Part shown: positions 15,605 through 31,403 of the stretch, piece by piece
Layout: each line of letters begins with the position of its first letter
Numbering within the stretch: the first letter of the stretch is position 1
Assembly (NCBI GenBank): GCA_031281225.1
Contig: JAITFQ010000020.1
Coordinates: 1 to 51,991, forward strand
Reading direction: 5' to 3'
DNA from: Chitinispirillales bacterium
GTDB lineage: Bacteria; Fibrobacterota; Chitinivibrionia; Chitinivibrionales; Chitinispirillaceae
DNA length: 51,991 nucleotides
Made by a program: the position numbers and the translations under genes
Notes under the pieces: generated by a model
What the model was told of the DNA's origin: nothing
Database searches by the model: none
Seen by the model: the letters and a program-made list of their open reading frames with translations, nothing else

Positions 15605-15927
15605 AGTGACAATATACTATATATCAACGGATAAAGTCAATGGGAATATGTTAATTTTTGAAAACGGAGCGGGCCCGAATTGCGTATCAAGCAATAAATT
15701 CATATTCCCCTCAACAATTCCTCTTCACCTATCTCCCGATCATCCTTGAACTCCTTCGAAAAAACACGACGTGAAACACCATCCTTACTCATAAAAATAA
15801 CCCTCCTTCACACTAAAATACAAGTTAAAACTAACAGAGCGCAAATATAAGAGGGAAAAACCCAGTCGCCGCAAGCGTGCAATATATAACTATGAATACC
15901 ATGCCAGTCAACACATTCGATTCCATT

Positions 15928-29892: not shown

Positions 29893-30290
29893 CGTCCGCT
29901 TTTCCCCGAAAAAGTTTGCTTTACAAAAGTGAAAAACCCGCCGATCCACCTGTTTTTCTTCTGCCGCGGCATCTTGACCTCCAAAACCTCAAGCTGCCCC
30001 GACACCGGATACTCAAGACCCCGCGCACGCGCCAGACGCTCTATGCGCGCCGGCGACGAAAGACGGCCGCGTTCCAGCTCAAGCGACGTTATTTCGCGCC
30101 TCAGGGACGCGAGCGTGTCGGCCTTGTATTCAAGACGTATTGATACCTGATTTACATAAGACTGCTTCCAGACTAACACAAGAGGTAACGCGATGCTTCC
30201 GACGAGTACGCACAGCCCTATCAACATGCTGCGCAGGCGCACAACAGGCTGGCCATTTTTTTCTTCCCTGCCCAATTTTTTCTTCGTCAT
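29889..30290 (-). CDS. ftsL: cell division protein FtsL-like
   Basis: One TM followed by coiled coil, between rsmH and ftsI; start MTKKKLG preceded by GGAGG. Confidence 0.8.
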   Translation of the reverse strand: MTKKKLGREEKNGQPVVRLRSMLIGLCVLVGSIALPLVLVWKQSYVNQVSIRLEYKADTLASLRREITSLELERGRLSSPARIERLARARGLEYPVSGQLEVLEVKMPRQKKNRWIGGFFTFVKQTFSGKSGR

Positions 30291-30333
30291 TGACAAGCCT
30301 CCGCAACGTTTACCGCTTATCAGACCACAATTT

Positions 30334-30411
30334 TTATAGATAAATACCCATTTGTCCGGCAACTACCAACATCATTACCAGCGTCAAAACAATAATGGCG
30401 AAATCTCTCAT
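30334..30411 (-). CDS. 25-aa single-TM micro-protein MRDFAIIVLTLVMMLVVAGQMGIYL (unannotated)
   Basis: ATG overlaps the rsmH stop (ATGA); AAAGGAGG 7 nt upstream; almost wholly hydrophobic; TAA stop. Below the ORF-track cutoff. Confidence 0.6.
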   Translation of the reverse strand: MRDFAIIVLTLVMMLVVAGQMGIYL

Positions 30412-31403
30412 AAACACGCCTCCTTTGTACGCTCGGCGACCCGCAGCCGAGCGCTTCTTGATCTGGGGTTAAGCGTTATCTCCTCATCCGACGCCGTTAC
30501 CGCCTTCCTGTTTACACGTTTCAACAGTACAGGCCTGTTACAGTTACAGACCGGCAAGCCAGGATCGCATACACACGCTCCCTCGGCCGCCCGGAAAAAC
30601 TCTTTTACCATCCGGTCCTCAAGCGAATGGTAGGATATTACCGCAATCCTCCCCCCCTCCGCCAGCCAACGCACCGATTTATCAAGAAACAACCGTAATT
30701 CTTCCAACTCCCCGTTAACAGCGATACGCAGCGCCTGAAAGAGTTTTGCGAAAACCTGTATCTTTAAGTTCGCGCCGTACTCCCGCGTCAGGCAATCTTT
30801 CAGATCGGCGGACGTAAGGATTTTTTTTTGCCTCATATAATCCTTAATAACCCCCGCCATCCTCCGCGCGTTCCTGATTTCACCGTATTTTTCAAATACA
30901 AGAGCGAGCTCCCCTTCGTCACTATGCTCCAAAAATTCCGCCGCCGTGAGGCCGCCGCCCTGATCCATCCTCATATCGAGAGGCGCGTCCCTCATATACA
31001 TAAATCCGCGCCCCGGAGCGTCAATCTGGCGGGACGATACCCCCAAATCAACCAACAGCCCCGCAACCCTGTCAATGCCGTGCTTCCGCAAAACGGAATC
31101 AAATTCGGAAAAACGCGACTGCTCGAGGATCACCTTCGCGCCGGTACCGCCCAAACCGCCGCGCCGTACATTATCAAGAGCCTCCCGATCCCTGTCAATC
31201 CCTATTACTACGCACTCCCCCGCCCCATCCCTGCCCGAGAGCGCACCGGCGACCGCCCTGAAATGCCCCCCGCCGCCGAGCGTGCCGTCTACGTAAACTT
31301 TTCGGCTATCTTTTATTGACGGCTGCGCCATATCACCGCCGCCTACAAGCAATTCTAACACTTCCCCAAGGAGCACGGGGACATGGTATTCAGTTTCGCT
31401 CAT
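30408..31403 (-). CDS. rsmH: 16S rRNA (cytosine(1402)-N(4))-methyltransferase
   Basis: HVPVLLGEVLELL; VDGTLGGGGHF; VISYHSLEDRMVKEFF. Confidence 0.97.
   Translation of the reverse strand: MSETEYHVPVLLGEVLELLVGGGDMAQPSIKDSRKVYVDGTLGGGGHFRAVAGALSGRDGAGECVVIGIDRDREALDNVRRGGLGGTGAKVILEQSRFSEFDSVLRKHGIDRVAGLLVDLGVSSRQIDAPGRGFMYMRDAPLDMRMDQGGGLTAAEFLEHSDEGELALVFEKYGEIRNARRMAGVIKDYMRQKKILTSADLKDCLTREYGANLKIQVFAKLFQALRIAVNGELEELRLFLDKSVRWLAEGGRIAVISYHSLEDRMVKEFFRAAEGACVCDPGLPVCNCNRPVLLKRVNRKAVTASDEEITLNPRSRSARLRVAERTKEACL

Follow-up and report, generated by a model that had tools for sequence, protein, structure and literature searches.

A short membrane-type reading frame, probably young and species-limited, between rsmH and ftsL in a Chitinispirillales bacterium

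The window, a 51,991-nucleotide stretch of a Chitinispirillales genome, carries a division cluster in which family searches identified MraZ, FtsI/PBP2 and a Mur ligase beside the products of rsmH and ftsL (Table 1). The source assembly is fragmented into 163 contigs, and its nearest named relatives are Chitinispirillia MAGs. The ftsL product matched TIGR02209 at 1e-8, under that model's cut-off. Its ATG, at 30290, lies 120 nt downstream of the rsmH stop codon, counted from that codon's first base, and has its own Shine-Dalgarno (SD) sequence, GGAGG, 7 nt before it. Neighbouring genes overlap at mraZ-rsmH (ATGA), ftsL-ftsI (GTGA) and ftsI-murE (TAATG); the sole non-overlapping junction among those compared is that between ftsL and a 25-codon micro-ORF preceding it.

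Table 1. Features of the rsmH-ftsL junction in the window.
Feature	Coordinates	Strand	Remarks
rsmH (mraW), 16S rRNA methyltransferase	30408..31403	-	PF01795, 2e-88
SD of micro-ORF, AAAGGAGG	30419..30426	-	within the last rsmH codons (TKEA)
ATGA, micro-ORF start / rsmH stop overlap	30408..30411	-	position corresponds to the ftsL start of relatives
Micro-ORF, MRDFAIIVLTLVMMLVVAGQMGIYL	30334..30411	-	25 codons; stop TAA 30336-30334
Spacer, micro-ORF stop to ftsL start	30291..30333	-	43 nt; holds ftsL SD GGAGG
ftsL, 133 aa	29889..30290	-	TM and coiled-coil region, FtsL/DivIC-like; family search

An earlier note on this DNA had described the micro-ORF as a 25-codon minus-strand frame, overlapping the rsmH stop as ATGA and preceded by a strong ribosome-binding site at good spacing. 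Inspection confirmed each of these points. The frame runs from 30411 to 30334 and reads ATG AGA GAT TTC ... CTA TAA, which encodes MRDFAIIVLTLVMMLVVAGQMGIYL. Its ATG (30411-30409) overlaps the rsmH stop TGA (30410-30408), and the SD, AAAGGAGG, is 8 nt long and situated 7 nt upstream of the ATG. The micro-ORF is thus coupled to rsmH without overlapping ftsL, because the spacer precedes the latter. With an SD, a start, and a stop that falls shortly ahead of the next gene in the same orientation, it has the layout of a leader or relay ORF. It does not qualify as FtsL, a protein with a TM segment and a periplasmic coiled coil, since it has 25 aa and a TM segment only; FtsL is encoded by the ORF at 30290-29889.

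To set these properties against a genomic null, we collected ORFs of 18-60 aa with an ATG start and an SD of 5 nt or longer from 1.33 Mb of the same genome (the window plus 100 regions), and recovered 393. Only three have an 8-nt SD, the micro-ORF and two others that look like real coding sequence. Its hydropathy was the third highest of the 393 (maximum 19-residue KD 2.42), a value reached by random stop-free ORFs with P ~0.0001 at genome composition and with P 0.009 at the micro-ORF's own T-rich composition. Second codon positions are 64% T, like those of TM segments. The micro-ORF is an outlier in its own genome, though it was picked by a reader seeking outliers. Its synonymous codon choice gave a log-likelihood ratio of -5.5, and scores as low were found for 5 of 263 real TM segments of the genome versus 9% of hydrophobic out-of-frame segments. 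Codon choice is therefore not gene-like, 98% of the real TM segments scoring higher, which points weakly, with 24 codons scored, to a young or unselected ORF.

Other short ORFs with an SD were seen in the same genome. One of 30 aa, MSKDGVSRRVFSKEFKDDREIGEEELLRGI, lies at 15700-15792 (minus strand) of the window, in a region where no gene is called, and has a 7-nt SD. Two elsewhere probably escape annotation: a 53-aa TM protein with a very basic tail (L130:480-641, plus strand) and a 59-aa protein with two TM segments (L145:3500-3679, plus strand).

RNA structure around the micro-ORF was not notable (z -0.64), and the pairing of micro-ORF RNA with the ftsL start was not significant, 19% of shuffles pairing as much. 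Within the predicted structure the micro-ORF SD is ~28% unpaired and its ATG mostly unpaired. Relevant to a type I toxin peptide (Ibs/TimP-like), which would have an antisense RNA or a regulated transcript of its own, a simple consensus scan for sigma-70-like promoters detected none on either strand of 30000-30800, and none within the rsmH-ftsL gap.

The junction was then compared across 69 other genomes of the phylum, making 70 junctions with the window; one genome of the same genus (G003), in which no rsmH was found and only the C-terminus of FtsI was recovered, lies outside this set. The earlier note had proposed aligning the gap in relatives, and had named a lack of conservation of the ORF there among the outcomes that would refute its reading. 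No short TM ORF was found between rsmH and ftsL at any of the 69 related junctions, that of the sister species included, an outcome that goes against the note's reading and against a conserved dcw-cluster division protein. What relatives have at this place is the ftsL start itself. At 34 of the 70 junctions the first usable start is at -1 (ATGA); in 68 of the 69 relatives it falls in the range -22 to +43 relative to the rsmH stop. Stop-start overlap of rsmH and ftsL is the normal arrangement in this phylum and, since half of the starts fall exactly at ATGA, we conclude that ftsL initiation ancestrally took place there. The window (+120) and the sister species, L002 (G001:C251; +93), are the two extremes; they group together with support 88/89, and their RsmH proteins are 76% identical. 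The ftsL start thus lies ~90-120 nt downstream in this lineage.

No other of the 70 junctions has an SD as long as that of the micro-ORF, a point in favour of translation. In the sister gap the rsmH end lacks an SD, and there is neither ATGA nor micro-ORF; the gap contains in-frame stops, and its alignment with the window gap was no better than shuffles (P 0.45). The displaced ftsL start of the sister is preceded only by GAGG, 13 nt upstream. Distances from the rsmH stop to the FtsL QPVxRLR box, counted by hand from junction translations, were 159 nt in the window, 144 in L002, 175 in L004, 116 in L005, 111 in L007 and 57 in L009. The window value is ordinary for the genus (range 57-175), and therefore the micro-ORF sits in the usual slot of the FtsL tail. 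As the two gaps cannot be aligned, the argument for the ORF's birth out of the ftsL tail is one of position and not of sequence. Three members of the genus (L004, L005 and L007) have a long, polar N-terminal cytoplasmic tail of variable length, unalignable across species, followed by a conserved QPVxRLR box and TM segment. In another member of the genus, L006 (G004), FtsL has a divergent TM region (WPRYMFIALCVFVVAFCSVQTSRY) and no QPVxRLR box, and its RsmH is still among the closest.

Homology searches agreed in finding no second sequence carrying the micro-ORF, whether in the genus DNA search, the family tblastn or the 69 junctions. The peptide matched only its own genome by tblastn against 24 family genomes, a weak test at 25 aa, and had no homologue in Pfam, NCBIfam or PDB, searches of little power at this length. 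Junction DNA compared with 8 genus genomes showed only rsmH 3'-end similarity above chance, and an exact DNA scan of viral contigs gave no match. As far as can be seen from these comparisons, the micro-ORF appears limited to the window species.

Taken together, the micro-ORF is probably a young frame, limited to its species, that opens where ftsL was ancestrally initiated, rather than an overlooked conserved division protein; a conserved division role is not supported by the genomes compared. The earlier note had cited ATGA coupling like that of the neighbours as an argument for a micro-protein. The overlap with rsmH does resemble the other junctions, but a better explanation for it is the overlap that ancestrally joined rsmH to ftsL. 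The simplest account is a downstream shift of the ftsL start. In the window species the displaced start has its own SD, and the DNA between the genes holds the position of the fast-changing cytoplasmic FtsL tail of several genus members. Position is directly visible; descent from that tail by a change of frame is what we infer. The old ATG would now open 25 codons followed by a stop. Ribosomes that have completed rsmH probably reinitiate at ATGA under the guidance of AAAGGAGG, synthesise a short hydrophobic peptide and terminate 43 nt ahead of the ftsL ATG. At most, the micro-ORF would serve as a leader or relay by which ribosomes keep arriving at ftsL. Speaking against such a step, the micro-ORF RNA does not clearly hide the ftsL start, and an SD of its own precedes ftsL. 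The TM character may follow incidentally from T-rich DNA, leaving the peptide as such with little or no selected function. Against this stands a hydropathy above the usual yield of T-richness alone (P 0.009).

Some initiation is likely, because an 8-nt SD at good spacing and a mostly unpaired ATG lie directly behind a translated gene, and we regard the micro-ORF as likely translated on these sequence signals. The same features argue against a chance ORF that merely inherited ATGA and SD, yields little or no peptide and leaves ftsL to be translated only from its own SD. This reading is unlikely, even though it accords with the absence of conservation, the non-coding-like codon choice, the mostly paired SD (~28% unpaired) and the occurrence of short SD-ATG ORFs in antisense as well (182 in 1.33 Mb). 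The earlier note had proposed a translated membrane micro-protein inside the division cluster, with a divisome function as an inference: translation is plausible given the SD, the stop-start overlap and TM-grade hydropathy, whereas a division-cluster protein finds no support at 0/69 junctions.

A functional single-TM divisome micro-protein, for example one binding FtsL or FtsI, would have to be new in or restricted to the window species. The 8-nt SD, the hydropathy and the operon position fit such a protein, but its absence from every related junction, the sister's included, and the negative tblastn result for 23 other family genomes (weak for 25 aa), together with codon choice unlike real TM segments and the want of a family match (also weak at 25 aa), makes it distinctly improbable. 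Slightly more doubtful still is a scenario in which a TM micro-protein of recent birth has taken over the start site of an essential division gene and either works within the FtsL/FtsI module of this species or tunes its dose. It is very unlikely that micro-ORF and ftsL form one longer FtsL, split by a missed indel in the assembly or joined by programmed frameshifting. The ftsL frame is indeed open for 24 codons upstream of its ATG, overlapping the micro-ORF end; several stops lie farther upstream in that frame, a joined protein would carry a hydrophobic stretch ahead of the FtsL TM where relatives have polar tails, and the ftsL ATG, with an SD of its own, stands at the point where the sister protein also begins.

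Small single-TM proteins of bacteria include KdpF, CydX, AcrZ and the Ibs toxins. The micro-ORF peptide falls in the length and hydrophobicity class of such proteins, to which TimP also belongs (PMC7667032), but differs in having no homology found, no conservation and no known antisense RNA or partner. Like bacterial upstream ORFs and leader peptides, such as that of E. coli topAI-yjhQ (PMC12121999), the micro-ORF is a short SD-bearing frame closely preceding a cotranscribed gene, which its translation could affect; unlike them, it has no recognised stalling motif, notable RNA structure or conservation, and begins inside an operon, overlapping the preceding gene. It also resembles the TM ORFs emerging de novo from thymine-rich DNA in yeast (PMC7005711) in being a species-limited ORF in T-rich DNA whose TM peptide has no homologues. 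It differs from those in being bacterial and in starting at an inherited gene start site.

A strong ribosome-binding site, stop-start coupling and hydrophobicity are insufficient alone as proof of a conserved micro-protein. If translated, the micro-ORF would be a compact, naturally occurring example of how a new membrane ORF can originate at a vacated, inherited stop-start coupling site in an otherwise conserved division cluster.
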